From Planctomyces sp. SH-PL62 (GTDB taxonomy: Bacteria > Planctomycetota > Planctomycetia > Planctomycetales > Planctomycetaceae), in NCBI GenBank assembly GCA_945893075.1, contig CAMDDX010000018.1, positions 1 through 42,189 on the forward strand: a DNA stretch of 42,189 nt. The letters are read 5' to 3'. Below the pieces are notes generated by a model. That model was not told where the DNA came from and did not search any database. It was given only the letters and a program-made list of their open reading frames with translations. Positions 4,377 to 35,884 of the stretch are shown here, in pieces (the first letter of the stretch is position 1; every line of letters starts with the position of its first letter). The position numbers and the translations under genes were made by a program.

Positions 4377-4474
4377 GGGGTCAGGCACCGCAAAATTCAA
4401 AATTGGCGGAACCAAGCGTTGGAAGTACTCAGGACGTAGCTCCGCCAATTTTGAATTTTGCGGTGCCTGACCCC
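4377..4474. repeat. 98-bp GGGGTCAGGCACCGC inverted repeat, copy 1
   Basis: Perfect 34-base arms at 4377-4410 and 4441-4474, starting GGGGTCAGGCACCGCAAAA and holding an AT-rich centre. The second copy (7388-7485) is also 98 bp. Similarity extends outside the left arm: the bases before this copy (AACAGCATTTGTCC) correspond, inverted, to the bases after copy 2 (GGACAAATTCTGTT). Confidence 0.88.
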
Positions 4475-7387: not shown

Positions 7388-7485
7388 GGGGTCAGGCACC
7401 GCGAAACTCAAAATTGGCGGAGTGAAGTCCTGTGAGCACACTCCGCGATACTCCGCCAATTTTGAGTTTTGCGGTGCCTGACCCC
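7388..7485. repeat. 98-bp GGGGTCAGGCACCGC inverted repeat, copy 2
   Basis: Arms of 35 bases (7388-7422 and 7451-7485) with a single mismatch. Same ends, same total length and same AT-rich arm centre as copy 1 at 4377-4474; the 28-base loop differs. It separates the M50 gene from the convergent YiiX-like gene. Confidence 0.88.
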
Positions 7486-11869: not shown

Positions 11870-11925
11870 AGCACGACGCGCCAGTAAGTGGTTCTGCTTC
11901 AAACCACTTGCTGGCGCGTCGTGCT
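11870..11925. repeat. 56-bp GCACGACGCGCC hairpin
   Basis: Arms of 24 bases (11870-11893 and 11902-11925) with one G:T-type mismatch and an 8-base loop. It begins 14 bases past the stop codon of the helicase gene and 53 bases before the start of the exported nuclease-like gene, both on the minus strand, so it may end helicase transcription. The core CGACGCGC is shared with the elements at 23003 and 28953. Confidence 0.75.
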
Positions 11926-13363: not shown

Positions 13364-13697
13364 AACGTTCTCCAAGAGAGTTATCCGCCCAGGTGACTCG
13401 TTCAAAGTGGAGTCGGCGAGGACCGCGAACAGACTCAACAGAGAGTCCGCGTCACGGCCAATTGGCGGCTGCTCGAGCGGCGTCTTGCGATCGTCCGCGT
13501 GCGAGCGAATCAAAAAATCCAGGATGAGATGTCTGACGGTTCCCGTCAGCTCCACGCCATCAAACCTAGTCGAGTCCGATGGCGGAAATCTCTTTCATCA
13601 TCCACTGGATTCGGCGGGCAATGCCCGAAGTGCGGGGACTCTAGTGGCGGAACCCCAGATCCGCCAGACGGTTTTGGAAGCAAATTAGGCTCAGGAC
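13364..13697. other. Gene-free stretch upstream of the helicase gene
   Basis: About 330 bases between the helicase start and the 3' end of uppP. Both neighbouring genes read leftward, so this should hold the helicase promoter and 5' leader. Short imperfect repeats of GGCGG and CCGCC occur around 13570-13670. I see no convincing gene, riboswitch or terminator. Confidence 0.5.
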
Positions 13698-13760
13698 GTA
13701 GTTCGGACGCCCACGTCCGAACAATACCATTGGCTGACCGGACGTAGGCGTCCGGTCTAC
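13698..13760. repeat. 63-bp GTAG-CGGACG inverted repeat overlapping the uppP stop
   Basis: Arms of 22 bases (13698-13719 and 13739-13760) begin GTAG and hold the inner palindrome CGGACG-CCYACG-TCCG. The right end supplies the TAG stop codon of uppP (13757-13759, minus strand). A related element is inside the coding region at 22931-22980, and a single arm of it sits at about 14600-14623. Confidence 0.8.
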
Positions 13761-14548
13761 GGCCAAAGCTGCCACGCTGTCACCACCGTGCCCAGCACCA
13801 AGCAGTAATACGCGAACCAGTGCAGTTGCCGCTGCGTGACGATGCGAATCAAGAATCGCAGCGCGGCGATACCAACGGCAAACGAGATCACCGCTCCGAA
13901 CAGCAATTGGCCGATCGCCAAACTCTCCGAGTGCCGCATCGCCAGCCCCTTGAGCAGCACGACTCCACCCACGGCTGGGACCGACAACAAAAAGGAAAAC
14001 GTCGTCGCCGCATGGCGAGTCAGCCCGACCATCAGTCCTCCTGCAATCGTGCTCCCCGAGCGAGAGATTCCCGGCAACAGGGCCAGCGTCTGAAAGCAGC
14101 CCACCGCCAGGGCGTGAGGCCACTTCATTTGGTCTAGTTCCAGCAAGCTGATCTCCATGCGTTGGCCCGCGAATAGAAACGTTGCCGTGATGAACAGCCC
14201 CAAGCCGACCAGCAACGGCGAGACCAATGTCTGCTCAAGCCAATCTTTGAAAGCCAGTCCGACCACCGCCACCGGAATGCTGCCGATGATCACATTCAGC
14301 AGCAGCCGATGACGTTTTCGCAACGACCACAGGTCTTGCCGATACACGACGATCGTGGCCAGCAAAGTTCCGAGATGCAGTCCAACGATCAGCGCGATCG
14401 TTTCGTCCGCAGTGGCGCTCGTGCCGAACCAGCGATCGAGCAGTTTGCCGACGAGGATCAAATGCGACTTCGAGCTGATCGGCAGGAACTCGGTGATTCC
14501 CTGTACGACCCCTTGAATCAGCGTCTGCCAAAGTTGAGCACCATCCAT
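13757..14548 (-). CDS. uppP: Undecaprenyl-diphosphate phosphatase
   Basis: A 263-residue inner-membrane protein that removes one phosphate from undecaprenyl diphosphate, recycling the lipid carrier for cell-wall and surface polysaccharide synthesis. Both family signatures are present: GITEFLPISSKSHL (residues 17-30) in place of the usual ITEFLPISSTGHL, and LPGISRSGST in the second half. Seven or eight membrane helices follow the expected order and the length is normal. Start ATG 14548 (MDGAQLW) places the first helix at the N-terminus; no clear Shine-Dalgarno is seen. The stop codon TAG lies inside a palindromic element, so the extreme C-terminus may have been reshaped by its insertion. Two other palindromic elements fill the upstream gap. 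Confidence 0.92.
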   Translation of the reverse strand: MDGAQLWQTLIQGVVQGITEFLPISSKSHLILVGKLLDRWFGTSATADETIALIVGLHLGTLLATIVVYRQDLWSLRKRHRLLLNVIIGSIPVAVVGLAFKDWLEQTLVSPLLVGLGLFITATFLFAGQRMEISLLELDQMKWPHALAVGCFQTLALLPGISRSGSTIAGGLMVGLTRHAATTFSFLLSVPAVGGVVLLKGLAMRHSESLAIGQLLFGAVISFAVGIAALRFLIRIVTQRQLHWFAYYCLVLGTVVTAWQLWP

Positions 14549-14563: not shown

Positions 14564-14655
14564 CGTGGGGCACGTTTTCAACGTGCCCGAATACAAACCG
14601 TAGTCCGGACGCCCACGTCCGGACATTTACGGGCAGGTTGAAAACCTGCCCCACG
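14564..14655. repeat. Compound palindrome: CGTGGGGCA family with a nested GTAG-CGGACG arm
   Basis: Outer arms of 26 bases at 14564-14589 and 14630-14655 pair with a few, partly compensated differences (left core CACGTTTTCAACGTG, right core CAGGTTGAAAACCTG, each self-complementary). Between them lies GTAGTCCGGACGCCCACGTC (from 14600), one arm of the family found at 13698 and 22931. The outer family also occurs inside the ABC transporter gene at 34892-34953. Confidence 0.75.
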
Positions 14656-21851: not shown

Positions 21852-22433
21852 TCATTTTCGGCGTGCGTCTGAAACGAAAAAGTCCGCGACGTGATCGCAG
21901 ACAAGTTGAAACGCCGCGAGTTCGTTTGGTCCGGCGGTTTTTTCGACAGGGCTTCGTAATGCGGCGAGTTGCCGTTCGACTTCTTCGCGAGGCAGCAGAT
22001 GTAATCGCGTCGCCAAGATCGCCGCTTCGAGCACCGCATGCTTCGCGCGGTTGAAGCCGAACACATCGCGTAGTCGTCCGACGTGGACGACTCGTGCGCG
22101 GATTTCGGTGCGGTCGTGCGTCGCGTCGAGCGATTCGATTTCAAACTCGTACCAGCGGCAAGCGGATGCGAGGACTCGGCCGGTGACTCGTTCGGCGGAG
22201 AATGTCTCCGGCGGCGTGTCGAGTTTTCCGATCGCGGCTTTCGCCAGCAGCAAGACGTCATCGACGACGTGAAACACCCCTTGAGGTCGCTCTTTCAAAT
22301 TGCGAAAAGTCTGCGATGTCTGAAACGGACGCAGATGCAGCCAGGTCATCGACACATCAACGATCGGCCCTATCGGCGCGATGTTGAGTTCGCCGGCGGC
22401 GTTCAAGCTGGTGACGATGCCTTCAAGGATCAT
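21852..22433 (-). CDS. DUF447 family protein (FMN-binding split-barrel-like)
   Basis: A 193-residue protein that opens MILEGIVTSLNAAGELNIAP and then has LRPFQTSQTFRNL and GVFHVVDDVLLLAKAAIG, the hallmarks of DUF447. This family is shared by methanogenic archaea, methylotrophs and planctomycetes and tends to occur in genomes with the tetrahydromethanopterin C1 pathway (family knowledge, from memory). The fold resembles flavin-nucleotide-binding split barrels. ATG 22433 is chosen because relatives begin there; upstream codons fall in a palindromic repeat. The membrane protein gene upstream on the same strand ends 136 bases away, with that repeat filling the gap. Confidence 0.85.
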   Translation of the reverse strand: MILEGIVTSLNAAGELNIAPIGPIVDVSMTWLHLRPFQTSQTFRNLKERPQGVFHVVDDVLLLAKAAIGKLDTPPETFSAERVTGRVLASACRWYEFEIESLDATHDRTEIRARVVHVGRLRDVFGFNRAKHAVLEAAILATRLHLLPREEVERQLAALRSPVEKTAGPNELAAFQLVCDHVADFFVSDARRK

Positions 22434-22439
22434 GATTCC

Positions 22440-22568
22440 GTAGGTCAGGCTTTCCAGCCTGACTCCAGTGAATGACAAGACAGAGAGGGGACGATCGTTG
22501 TCCTCGCGGTCACATTTCAGGCAATGAAAGTCTGTTGCCTTCGGGTCAGCCTGGAAAGGCTGACCTAC
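22440..22568. repeat. 129-bp GTAGGTCAGGCTTTCC inverted repeat
   Basis: Perfect or near-perfect 24-base arms (22440-22463 and 22545-22568), each holding a self-complementary core (GTCAGGCTTTCCAGCCTGAC). It fills the gap between the stop of the membrane protein gene (22570) and the start of DUF447 (22433) almost exactly. Confidence 0.85.
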
Positions 22569-22569
22569 G

Positions 22570-23421
22570 TCATGCGGCCTCGATCGCGGCCGATTCGCAG
22601 ACGGCGGAGTATGACAGCTCGATCTCGGCTGGCTCGTCGCTCGACTCGCGTTTGAGTTCGACTCGCATTCCGTAGGCGTACACGACGGAGACCTTCCAGC
22701 GGGCGGGATCGTCCCCGATCGCCTCGCACTCAACCTGCGGCACGGCGGCGAACGGCGGGCTGAAGGGGACGTGAACCGAGGCAGCTCGCTGTCCGGCCGC
22801 GAACGAGATACGAATTGCGCCTTCGATTTGATCGACCCCGCCGGGCAACGCTTGCCGAGTCATCCATTGTGTCGTTGACTCGTCGGAACGCTCGTCGACG
22901 ACCGGCGCGAAGACGGATAAGTCGGCTGGCGTAGCCCGGACGCCTACGTCCGGGCGATCGGACGTAGGCGTCCGATCTACGGCCTCGGACAAGCGGCTAA
23001 TCTCACTAGCCCGACGCGCGAGCGAGGGGTCTTCGTTCGCAACCCCTCGCTCGCGCGTCGGGCTAGTGAGACTCAGCGCGAAGCCGGCGGCCGACAACGC
23101 GGCGATGCCGACCAGCCAACCGCGAGCCAGCGGCGAATCGGACGGCAACAGTGCGACGCCGCCCAGCCATGTTGGCAACCAAGCGACAACCGCCGCGATT
23201 TGTTCGGTGCGCGGCGATCGGACACAGGCTCGTTGTTGAAACGAGACCCAGCCGAATCCGCTCAGCAACGTCGCGAGCAGACTGACTAACACACACGGCC
23301 AAGCGGAAACCACGCTTTCGATCCCGCCCGCCACGCGACGTGACAACAGCAAGACCGTGACGACGATCAAGCTGCTCCAGATCAAGACGGCGGCTTGGCG
23401 ATTCCGTTCGGCACTCGTCAT
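22570..23421 (-). CDS. Membrane protein with two translated palindromes in its linker
   Basis: A 283-residue protein of unknown family. Residues 1-140 carry four hydrophobic helices (LIWSSLIVVTVLLL, CVLVSLLATLLSGFGW, IAAVVAWLPTWLGGVALL, LVGIAALSAAGFALS). A linker follows, then a C-terminal soluble domain of about 110 residues beginning FAPVVDERSDE and ending in beta-rich sequence (VEGAIRISFAAGQ-like, VPQVECEAIGDD). The linker is formed largely by two palindromic elements read in frame: SLTSPTRERGVANEDPSLAR and AVDRTPTSDRPDVGVRATP. The frame stays open through both. ATG 23421 (MTSAERNRQ) was chosen over an upstream start inside another repeat. It lies upstream of DUF447 on the same strand. Confidence 0.7.
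   Translation of the reverse strand: MTSAERNRQAAVLIWSSLIVVTVLLLSRRVAGGIESVVSAWPCVLVSLLATLLSGFGWVSFQQRACVRSPRTEQIAAVVAWLPTWLGGVALLPSDSPLARGWLVGIAALSAAGFALSLTSPTRERGVANEDPSLARRASEISRLSEAVDRTPTSDRPDVGVRATPADLSVFAPVVDERSDESTTQWMTRQALPGGVDQIEGAIRISFAAGQRAASVHVPFSPPFAAVPQVECEAIGDDPARWKVSVVYAYGMRVELKRESSDEPAEIELSYSAVCESAAIEAA
22931..22980. repeat. 50-bp GTAG-CGGACG palindrome inside a coding region
   Basis: Arms of 22 bases (22931-22952 and 22959-22980), three mismatches, 6-base loop. Same family as 13698-13760. On the minus strand it is read in frame as AVDRTPTSDRPDVGVRAT with no stop. Confidence 0.85.
23003..23069. repeat. 67-bp CACTAGCCCGACGCGC palindrome inside a coding region
   Basis: Perfect 28-base arms (23003-23030 and 23042-23069) with an 11-base loop. 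Related to the intergenic element at 28953-29051, whose arms read ACTAACCCGACGCGCAAGC. On the minus strand it is read in frame as SPTRERGVANEDPSLARRAS. Confidence 0.9.
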
Positions 23422-23453
23422 GTCAGCGATCCTTCGCTGGGAGGGGGAAATGG

Positions 23454-23550
23454 AAAATGAGAAATGGAGAATGAAAAATGCAAAAGGGAAGTTCAACGAT
23501 CAACGCCGAGTCATTTTGCATTCTCCATTTGTCATTTCTCATTTTTCATT
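23454..23550. repeat. Imperfect AT-rich inverted repeat (GAGAAATGGAGAATG)
   Basis: The left arm GAAATGGAGAATGAAAAATG and the right arm CATTCTCCATTTGTCATTTC pair imperfectly around the middle at about 23498. It lies between the metK stop (23559) and the start of the upstream membrane protein gene (23421), and is unusually AT-rich against its surroundings. Confidence 0.6.
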
Positions 23551-23558
23551 CTGCGGTT

Positions 23559-24701
<1,143 letters not shown>

Positions 24702-24736
24702 GTCGCTTTGGTTCCGTCGTTTGTCTGAAAAGAACT

Positions 24737-24775
24737 GGCCGGTCTTCCTGCAAGGCTTCCGAACCTCGACCGGCC
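24737..24775 (-). promoter_or_regulatory. Hairpin in the metK leader
   Basis: GGCCGGTC at 24737-24744 pairs exactly with GACCGGCC at 24768-24775, and the loop contains a further short pairing (AGGTTCGGAAGCCT on the metK strand). It sits 36 bases upstream of the metK start in the transcribed direction. A SAM-sensing leader is possible given the gene, but I do not recognise any known SAM riboswitch consensus. Confidence 0.35.
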
Positions 24776-24847
24776 AAAGTCGTGCGGGATTGTAGGTGCG
24801 GCGGCGCGATGCCTCAACGCCGGTCAAAGATCCGTGTCGATTGCCTC

Positions 24848-28952: not shown

Positions 28953-29051
28953 ACTAACCCGACGCGCAAGCGAGGCCCGACGCTTTACCAAACACCAATC
29001 GAAAACGGATGTCAGGAGATGCGTCCGGCCTCGCTTGCGCGTCGGGTTAGT
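28953..29051. repeat. 99-bp ACTAACCCGACGCGC inverted repeat
   Basis: Perfect 25-base arms (28953-28977 and 29027-29051) with a 49-base interior. Same family as the in-frame element at 23003-23069. It fills the gap between the FGE-like gene (ends 29057) and the CaMKII-AD gene start. Confidence 0.88.
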
Positions 29052-34145: not shown

Positions 34146-35690
34146 TTACGTCCAGCGCAGTAAGTCTGCTTTTTGCACTTCCTCACCGACGAATTCATGG
34201 GCGATGCGGCCACGTGCGAAGACCAGAATTCGATCCGCGTGAGCCAGCACCAACTCCGGTTCGGTCGAAGCGAGCACGACGGCTGCTCCCGACTTTTTTA
34301 AGCCGGCTACCAGCCGCATCACTTCGTCTTTCGCGTTGACGTCCATGCCGCGAGTCGGCTCTTCCAGGACCAACACTCGCACCGGCCCCAAAAGCCATTT
34401 CGCCAACACCACCTTCTGCTGATTTCCGCCTGACAAGTGGCCGGCCAATAATTCCGGCCGAGCGGGGCGGCAGCCAACTTGGTCGAGTATCGGCTGCACG
34501 ACGGTGTGTTCGCGTCCGCGCCGCAACCACTCTCCCATTGAGCGTCGCAGATGAGCCAGCGTTGTGTTGCGAGCAATCGAACTGCGACGCACCAAAGTTT
34601 TCGCTCGATCCGCCGCGACGAGCACGACGCCGCGACTCACCGCCGCCGAGACGTTGCCGTTCGGCAAGGCCGACTCATCCAATCGCACCGAACCCGCATC
34701 GACCGACACTGCGCCGGCCACCGCATGAGCCAACTCTTGATGTCCTGCACCGACGAATCCATAGAGCCCGACACACTCGCCCGGTGCGACGTCAAAGGTC
34801 ACGTCGCTGAATTCGCTGGCTCTCGATAAGCCTGTGACTCGCAATGTTGGAGGAGTTGTTGACCGCGCCGGCAAAGTGGTGGCCGCATCATCGTGGGGCA
34901 GGTTTTCAACTTGCCCGTGTCGTTGGCCGGGCAGGTTGGAAACCTGCCCCACGTGGCGGCCGAGCATTCGGGAAATGACCTCTGTCTTCGTCAGTTCGTC
35001 CGATCGCGACGTCGAGACCTTGCGGCCGTCTTTCAGCACCGTGACGCGATCACAAATCGCCAGAACGTCTTCCAAGAAGTGGCTGATGAAAATGATCGCC
35101 ACGCCGTTTCGTTTGAGCTGCCAGATCAACTCAAACAGCCGCCGCGTCTCCGGAGGGCTGAGCGCGCTGGTCGGCTCGTCGAGGATCAACACTCTCGCTC
35201 CACTGTGCAGGCCGCGAGCGATCTCCACCATCTGCCGGATCACCAGCGGAAACCGATCCAATCGACGCCGCACATCGACGTCGATCGCCATCTCACGCAA
35301 ATAATCTTGCGCTTGTTGCCGCATTCCCGACCAGTCGATCCGCCCGGCTCGCGTCGGCTGTCGGCCGAGAAACAGATTCTCCGCCACCGATAACGCTCCG
35401 ATGCCTGACAGCTCCTGATAGACCATTGCGATCCCGCACGCTTGAGCCTCGCGCGGCGACGACAGCGAGACCTCTCGGCCATGCAGGAGCACAGTCCCTT
35501 CATGATCGGGGTTTGCCCCGGCCAGGATTTTCATCAACGTGCTTTTTCCCGCGCCGTTGCAGCCGACCAGGCCATGCACTTCGCCCGGATGCAGATCGAA
35601 GTCCACGCCTTCCAGCGCGGTCACTCCGGAAAACTGCATCCCCATCGAGCGGCATTCCAACAACGGCGGTTCGGACACAGCGGAAATCAT
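34146..35690 (-). CDS. Sugar ABC transporter ATP-binding protein (RbsA/MglA type, two ATPase domains)
   Basis: A 514-residue tandem ATPase of the carbohydrate-uptake class that energises ribose, galactose or similar import. Domain 1 (about 10-235): Walker A GCNGAGKST (Cys replaces the usual Glu), YQELS, Walker B VLILDEPTSAL; its signature is weak (PLVIRQMVEIARG), as often in this class. Domain 2 (about 275-510): degenerate Walker A GFVGAGHQEL, signature LSGGNQQKVV and EEPTRGMDV, the usual asymmetric pattern. The linker after MLGR holds an in-frame palindromic element read as HVGQVSNLPGQRHGQVENLP. ATG 35690 is preferred; GTG 35699 is possible. No permease or binding protein gene adjoins, unlike typical rbs-type operons. 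Confidence 0.9.
   Translation of the reverse strand: MISAVSEPPLLECRSMGMQFSGVTALEGVDFDLHPGEVHGLVGCNGAGKSTLMKILAGANPDHEGTVLLHGREVSLSSPREAQACGIAMVYQELSGIGALSVAENLFLGRQPTRAGRIDWSGMRQQAQDYLREMAIDVDVRRRLDRFPLVIRQMVEIARGLHSGARVLILDEPTSALSPPETRRLFELIWQLKRNGVAIIFISHFLEDVLAICDRVTVLKDGRKVSTSRSDELTKTEVISRMLGRHVGQVSNLPGQRHGQVENLPHDDAATTLPARSTTPPTLRVTGLSRASEFSDVTFDVAPGECVGLYGFVGAGHQELAHAVAGAVSVDAGSVRLDESALPNGNVSAAVSRGVVLVAADRAKTLVRRSSIARNTTLAHLRRSMGEWLRRGREHTVVQPILDQVGCRPARPELLAGHLSGGNQQKVVLAKWLLGPVRVLVLEEPTRGMDVNAKDEVMRLVAGLKKSGAAVVLASTEPELVLAHADRILVFARGRIAHEFVGEEVQKADLLRWT
34892..34953. repeat. 62-bp CGTGGGGCAGGTT palindrome inside the ABC ATPase gene
   Basis: Arms of 26 bases (34892-34917 and 34928-34953) with two mismatches and a 10-base loop. 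Same family as the outer arms at 14564-14655. Read on the minus strand it gives GQVSNLP and GQVENLP, a repeat caused by the palindrome, with no stop. Confidence 0.88.
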
Positions 35691-35884
35691 TCGACGCACA
35701 CTTTCAGGCGGTCATGAATGAGACCGCGCACTCAACCAGGAGGGCAGAACTCTATTCCGCGCGCGAGTGGAATTGAATCGTCTGCCATCCGAGGCCGCTT
35801 GAGTGGCCATCCGCCGGCCGATTACAGTGCTCGCATCGGGATGTACCGATCAAACTTGTTGTTTCAATTCCGGGAGAACTTCGG

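Follow-up and report, generated by a model that had tools for sequence, protein, structure and literature searches.

How do two palindromic elements come to be read in frame inside one predicted membrane-protein gene? The locus that raises this question lies in a window of 42,189 nucleotides (the whole stretch of DNA that was analysed) from a planctomycete draft genome, which we call G000. The initial annotation had placed both palindromes in the frame of the gene, and both do lie within the open frame 22570-23496 on the minus strand, free of stops in the gene frame. Its measurements shift slightly: the second palindrome, element B, spans 71 bp with 30-base arms rather than 67 bp with 28-base arms, and by these borders the spacer between the two elements is 19 bases, not 22. 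The features at the locus are as follows, with the strand given where a feature has one.

22573-23421, minus strand: focal gene, 283 codons, with four predicted helices, a predicted disordered linker and a predicted beta domain
22879-23085, minus strand: predicted disordered linker (residues 113-181), mostly element-encoded, AlphaFold2 pLDDT below 50
22930-22981: element A, with halves 22930-22952 and 22959-22981, of REPIN form and read as AVDRTPTSDRPDVGVRAT
23001-23071: element B, a 71-bp hairpin with arms 23001-23030 and 23042-23071, read as the SLTSPTRERGVANEDPSLARRASEI region
23562-24827, minus strand: metK, a neighbour of the focal gene
21852-22445, minus strand: DUF447 gene, a neighbour of the focal gene

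We favor, at a probability of about 75%, the reading that miniature mobile palindromic elements of REPIN or TIR type insert widely and survive in tolerant loops as stop-free, less hydrophobic peptide. This reading is built from the sequences themselves, namely from repeat families, in-frame positions in conserved domains, re-use of loops, decay, one remnant and a bias in the frame used. REP/REPIN- and TIR-kind elements of about 45 families would spread through the genome, perhaps moved by Y1/RAYT transposases, and copies that land in genes would persist if the frame is kept, no stop arises and the peptide is short, weakly hydrophobic and located in a linker or loop. Persisting inserts would be translated as part of the protein, as floppy extra loops; mutation would erode them, or in-frame deletion would reduce them to remnants, and a tolerant loop could later be refilled by another family.

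Element A consists of a GTAG tag and a hairpin, followed by an inverted partner that ends in CTAC, and it is imperfect because its two outer stems differ. A REP is defined by an unpaired GTAG tag followed by a short hairpin, and element A has GTAG at both outer ends with the stems inside; a REPIN is an inverted REP pair dispersed as one unit, and the paired core of element A occurs in 32 copies, against 0 for the control. The initial annotation knew of no named planctomycete equivalent; element A is nonetheless a form of the known GTAG REP pair, and passages of PMC3733652 list R. baltica, a planctomycete, as host of several REP families. Element B has no GTAG tag and no REP-pair form. It is a single long hairpin whose 30-base arms begin TCTCACTAGCCC and are 100% complementary around an 11-base loop.

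Both elements have relatives in the window, including the two that had been pointed out earlier (one of the GTAG type and one of the other type), which are real. Other palindromes of the window matter to what follows, and all are given here.

13697-13764: relative of element A, between genes, touching a gene end
28953-29051: relative of element B, intergenic
11870-11925: relative of element B, overlapping a gene end
4377-4474: family C palindrome, GGGGTCAGGCACC, 98 bp, intergenic, of the type present in the focal linker of the relative G003
7388-7485: second family C copy, intergenic
34892-34953: in-frame element of the GTGGGGCAGGTT family, read as HVGQVSNLPGQRHGQVENLPHD in an ABC-ATPase gene
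34149-35699, minus strand: the ABC-ATPase gene holding that element, with two ABC_tran matches

The absence of further genomic copies, an outcome that the initial annotation had allowed for, is not what the genome holds: exact-pattern searches of all of G000 returned 32 copies of element A and 49 of element B, and none of the reversed control patterns. Over 12 genomes of the genus, which are drafts in hundreds of contigs, exact copies of element A number 60, 48, 32, 13, 11, 3, 2, 1, 1, 1, 1 and 0. When 81 genomes of the family were searched, two of them from the focal genus, element A was matched in 2 and element B in 18, which makes B the more widely spread; its matches span 17 of the 58 genera. 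Separately, at window positions 14566-14655, repeat halves of three families (GTGGGGCACGTT, GTAGTCCGGACG and GGGCAGGTTGAAAACC) adjoin or are nested; REP halves seem to be exchangeable.

The focal protein has no Pfam match above the curated cut-off (best E 0.038), and its anatomy is taken from an AlphaFold2 model built from 12 aligned sequences (overall pLDDT 58.8, pTM 0.36). Helices are predicted at residues 3-30, 41-64, 71-91 and 97-118 with pLDDT of about 43-62 in the helix region, and strands between residues 184 and 276 with about 75-87 in the beta domain. The intervening residues 113-181 have pLDDT below 50 (blocks 31-44), and the hairpin-spanned codons, 117-141 and 147-164, fall inside this low-confidence linker. 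The layout first proposed, a linker between four membrane helices and a soluble domain, is thus the one that the model predicts, at modest confidence for the helices. Weak Foldseek matches of the model (residues 184-276) to pyocin and phage tail-fibre parts and to snail agglutinins presumably arise via the predicted beta domain; they are not informative about the palindromes.

To place the locus in its genome, we counted strong hairpins (arms of at least 15, gap of at most 70) in 80 stretches of 20 kb of G000 together with the window. This sample of 1,642,189 bases is 22% of the draft genome (7.57 Mb, estimated contamination 4.8%), and a simple caller, whose codon model had 315 long ORFs as its training set, called 1,154 genes in it. 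The 1.64 Mb hold 482 strong hairpins, of which 242 are intergenic, 114 overlap a gene end and 126 lie inside ORFs. Of the 126, 87 keep a distance of 150 nt or more from each end of the ORF, and 79 of those also have coding signal on both flanks (threshold 0.1); we call these 79 strict. They sit in 61 genes, 11 of which hold two to four. When the genes were codon-shuffled, their 1.46 Mb of coding DNA yielded 2, 0 and 1 hairpins, and local shuffling yielded 0, so that chance is ruled out as the origin of the in-ORF hairpins (0-2 by codon shuffling against 126). Focal element A is among the strict cases. Element B falls outside because its downstream flank scores 0.065 against the threshold of 0.1, and its orthologues show that the frame is real. 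The strict density is about 48 per Mb, which would give about 360 strict cases in the whole genome if 79 per 1.64 Mb holds for 7.57 Mb.

Clustering of the arms by shared 9-mers yielded 113 groups: 45 with at least three members, which hold 403 of the 482 hairpins, and 57 singletons among the rest. Of the strict cases, 64 fall in 24 of the 45 larger families. The arms of F29 (six strict copies), F68 and a few other families are G-rich and resemble simple repeats, and these counted families may not be mobile elements. The same census, with the gene model trained on G000, was applied to 400 kb of G010, from the same genus, and found 16 strict cases there. In 120 kb of G012, from another genus, it found no strict case and seven hairpins in all; for this small control sample the G000 rate would predict 5.8 strict cases. 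The genome-wide protein signature anticipated in the initial annotation is supported, spread over many families; the peptides that it singled out, PTRERG and LARRAS, are a minor part of it, with 3 of 21 sampled members of their family in ORFs and one strict, and several other families exceed that family in in-ORF copies in the sampled 1.64 Mb.

The strict host genes include uvrA, purL, acrB, kinases and gamma-glutamyltranspeptidase. Forty of the 61 element genes were drawn at random, and 39 were scanned against Pfam, the fortieth being the focal gene. On our reading of the coordinates, the element lies inside a single Pfam domain match in 18 of the 39. It lies between two stretches of one family in two (spermine synthase and PSD1, with the second stretch inferred) and between two domains in seven; the latter include PurL, CheB-CheR, a UvrA and the ABC protein of the window, which is counted here with one ABC_tran stretch among the matches listed. 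In the remaining 12, the element is outside any Pfam match or the protein has none. The excess over the profile is close to the length of the element in Pkinase (30 residues against 29), gamma-glutamyltranspeptidase (22 against 21) and HATPase_c (27 against 23), and is mismatched elsewhere, with none in CinA and 14 against 28 in the AcrB of L099. Cross-locus alignments show elements to be absent from paralogues, as for 44 of 45 residues in a kinase, among the matches listed. Pseudogenes as a general account of the hosts are rejected by the elements inside Pfam domains of core enzymes.

A candidate for what moves such elements is the Y1 transposase. G000 has eight Y1_Tnp matches, seven of them above the cut-off, and we inspected 35 Y1 loci (8 of G000 and 27 others) of about 90 Y1 matches in the genus, with several flanks ending at contig ends. 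Family F7 stands on both sides of the Y1 match at L052, at 75 bp and 25 bp, and family F3 on both sides of that at L053, at 633 bp and 113 bp, which is the arrangement of TIRs around a TIRYT. The palindromes at these two loci begin GGGGTC, and part of them fit the GGGGWSAS motif (GGGGTCAG) that passages of PMC3733652 give for TIR-associated tyrosine transposases. F3 has two strict intragenic copies; F7 has three in-ORF copies near ORF starts, which are not strict and only loosely of the same type. In contrast to REP/REPIN systems with a RAYT, no Y1 transposase adjoins element A or B in the 35 loci: A has none within 900 bp, and one copy of B, 866 bp from L048, is too distant to count. Family C (F20), which shares the GGGGTCAG start, is likewise beside no Y1 gene in these loci, and the number of Y1 matches is unrelated to the number of element A copies (G001, for example, has 15 Y1 matches and 0 copies). 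Movement of the elements by a RAYT-type Y1 enzyme is therefore suggested by association, and among the families flanking Y1 genes strict intragenic copies are found for one.

Which copies persist in genes appears to depend on the peptide. In 77 of the 79 strict cases the element has one or more open frames besides the one used. Compared with the average over those other frames, the frame used has fewer W, F, Y, C, I, L, M and V residues in 62 of the 77 (Wilcoxon p = 2e-9) and a lower GRAVY in 49 (p = 0.0035), while disorder-promoting residues show no clear difference between used and other frames (p = 0.09). Family A has seven strict copies, and each is read in the same frame. Strict intragenic elements have 3.6 open frames of 6 against 2.7 for intergenic ones (p = 8e-6), a difference that comes partly from selecting open copies; for the arms alone, strict and intergenic elements show no clear difference (p = 0.056). 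The element peptides are richer in P, S and G than whole proteins. The element families themselves may have been shaped by life in genes, with a stop-free, weakly hydrophobic frame as an adaptation.

Constraint on the inserted peptide was gauged in four pairs of focal orthologues on non-overlapping tree paths (G000-G007, G005-G002, G006-G004 and G009-G011). Element B differs at 31 of 166 first and second codon positions and at 19 of 83 third positions; the gene core in the same pairs differs at about 9% of first and second positions and at 256 of 897 third positions. In element B the first two codon positions thus change almost as often as the third, as one would expect of an insert that is tolerated and not of a peptide under selection; the element peptides may be neutral. 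The third positions of element A are less diverged than those of the gene in some comparisons (2 of 17 against about 42%, p about 0.02, not independent), which is not expected under plain descent and decay.

Focal orthologues are present in 11 of the 12 genomes of the genus. All 11 are open through the linker, which rules out a pseudogene or a wrong gene call, and the occurrence of the elements at identical sites in several assemblies rules out an artefact of one MAG. Elements A and B stand at the same place in nine of the 11. Of 23 element B pairs checked, G000 keeps 23, G007 22 and G010 21, and the clade I genomes keep 19, 18, 16, 16 and 14, with 15 of 20 in G004; element A is mostly gone in G002 and half decayed in G011. 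The linker of G003 has neither element and carries a family C palindrome (GGGGTCAGGCAC type) of 98 bases, 34 of them in each arm. In the outgroup G001 (48% identity) the protein is equally long and its linker is not palindromic, and linkers free of hairpins also occur in the three more distant loci in which the motif could be placed (L029, L031 and L166), a comparison that leaves out 14 other distant loci where the motif search gave no anchor.

In a tree of PurL, UvrA and the focal protein, G003 groups with G000, G007 and G010 with support 1.0, and with G000 in particular with 0.695. On this position, A and B are most simply ancestral and were then lost or replaced in G003; and because nine of the 11 orthologues share both elements, the alignments indicate that the focal insertion is old and predates much of the genus. 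Orthologues lacking exactly the element-encoded residues had been expected. None was found, and the focal orthologues include no clean empty site: nine have both elements, one has another palindrome and G001 is non-palindromic. The outcome that would have told against the idea, the same linker in diverged DNA that is no longer palindromic, is realised in part, in the decayed copies of clade I. G011, the smallest of the 12 genomes, has no Y1_Tnp match and one exact family A copy, yet carries decayed inserts.

The exchange seen in G003 recurs in other proteins. One loop of PurL holds a GTAG family in G000 and G005, a second family in G007, G009 and G006 and a third in G003, and no hairpin was detected there in G001, G002, G004, G008 and G011. 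These states conflict with the species tree (L188-L199), and the identical element with identical borders in G000 and G005, which belong to different clades, suggests allele transfer or repeated insertion. On visual inspection, the PurL loops of G002 and G011 resemble the first and third family after decay or shortening. Seven of the 12 genomes have a UvrA-like open frame 2,298-2,448 codons long (L175-L184), which apparently joins two UvrA copies. Six UvrA loops have hairpins in at least one species at a looser threshold (score 14), and three of them hold different families by species: F29/F108, F29/F26/unassigned and F9/F31/F68/unassigned. The focal linker, with A and B in nine genomes and the 98-bp family C palindrome in G003, of the same clade as G000, is a further such site. 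One remnant is visible among the few sites comparable between the G000 and G010 samples (four matches each way): an element of G010 has 60 bp that are absent from G000, where one arm remains as coding sequence. Paralogues of DUF1553 (PSD1) at L056-L058 and L080 14057 have different elements in the same loop, after a YRQAS or FQQAT motif. That loops serve as landing pads is a tentative extension to which we would give somewhat less than an even chance: unrelated families would enter, leave and re-enter them, and mobile DNA would supply a good part of loop and linker sequence, which would turn over faster than the rest of the protein.

Transposition need not have produced the palindromes: template switching during replication, or gene conversion among dispersed copies, could make and renew them where they stand. 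At one site shared by G000 and G010 (L265 12992 / L106 6350), the stems of the REP halves differ together (CAGGTT in G000, CAAGCT in G010) around a similar loop, as renewal would have it, and the perfect focal copy of G000 beside the decayed ones of clade I and the meeting of halves from different families at 14566-14655 fit as well. We nevertheless consider renewal in place unlikely: the same families occur at many unrelated loci, which requires copying between loci, two families flank a Y1 gene on both sides, and changes on both sides of a pair are limited to 3 of the 23 pairs in B and 2 of the 23 in A. These last counts also leave maintenance of pairing by compensatory change unsupported. 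The one site tested, in G010, gave no support to a homogenisation of intragenic copies with the family that abounds in their own genome: the arms there are of the CAAGCT type, and the genome has 0 perfect CAAGCT repeats against 87 forward and 83 reverse CAGGTT repeats.

The age of the focal insertion invites a second alternative, that these are old domesticated linkers, ancient insertions that have become host sequence under vertical descent, with no mobility and with palindromes that are mere relics. The common place of A and B in nine of eleven focal orthologues, the fall of the clade I B pairs to 14-19 of 23 (15 of 20 in G004) and the drift at codon positions 1 and 2 are all in keeping with this. 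Relics, though, should not leave G000 with 23 of 23 B pairs when it is equally far from the common ancestor, nor put another family in G003, a member of the same clade; exact A copies that range from 0 to 60 within the genus and UvrA and PurL loops that vary between species make domestication quite improbable as the general account. Least probable is that the hairpins are kept for an action in mRNA or DNA (pausing, gyrase or nuclease sites) with the peptide as by-product, for although passages of PMC3733652 propose such roles for REPs, the intragenic copies decay in clade I, one loop is occupied by different families and the frame used is biased by peptide composition.

The reading as mobile elements tolerated in loops joins several known systems. 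Element A and its like resemble GTAG REPs and REPINs in the GTAG tag, short stems, head-to-head pairs, dispersed copies and presence of several families per genome. Passages of PMC3733652 describe intragenic REPs in several species of other phyla, with O. terrae the richest and both of its uvrA genes among the carriers, and different REPs at about one site in recB of two Xanthomonas species. For P. fluorescens SBW25, passages of PMC3116915 give 14 of 1,067 REP 16-mers as overlapping genes, against 126 of 482 hairpins (26%) in ORFs here, the repeat being measured differently in the two cases. Unlike known REPs, the elements here belong to many families at once, and their loops are re-used by different families across species. 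The long palindromes that start GGGGTC and flank the Y1 genes at L052 and L053 resemble TIRs with their TIRYT; here, by contrast, such palindromes also lie inside protein genes (C/F20, F3 and F6) and in the focal linker of G003.

The likeness to Rickettsia palindromic elements (RPEs) drawn at the outset is supported as one of kind: dispersed palindromic repeats stand open in frame in a protein gene. Passages of PMC2229807 describe RPEs in frame in conserved proteins, tolerated in 19 frames, and a Rickettsia guanylate kinase whose RPE insert is translated, the enzyme being active with changed substrate affinity. RPEs are 105-146 bp long and have an alphaproteobacterial host, unlike the elements here (PMC2229807, same passages). 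In-frame palindromes are thus a known kind, since both intragenic GTAG REPs and RPEs have been reported. The density, the diversity and the swapping of loops between families across a genus were not seen in the literature surveyed. That survey found no work on in-frame palindromes in planctomycete proteins; it covered passages of PMC3733652, which treats Planctomycetes, and passages of PMC6461901 on lake planctomycetes, which leave palindromes unmentioned and on which the freshwater label of the genus partly rests.

In-frame palindromes have so far mostly been regarded as a Rickettsia trait or as exceptions among REPs. With some strict cases in essential enzymes and 12 genomes in the genus, their density here would allow the gain, erosion, loss and exchange of protein segments through mobile DNA to be measured, and lets one ask which loops tolerate inserts. 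It also carries a warning: selfish DNA may be partly reflected in the loops and linkers of such proteomes and in alignments that lean on them. Beside the focal gene, one more inverted repeat pair, of the GTAGGTCAGGC type, lies at window positions 22437-22570, directly upstream of the start of the DUF447 gene.
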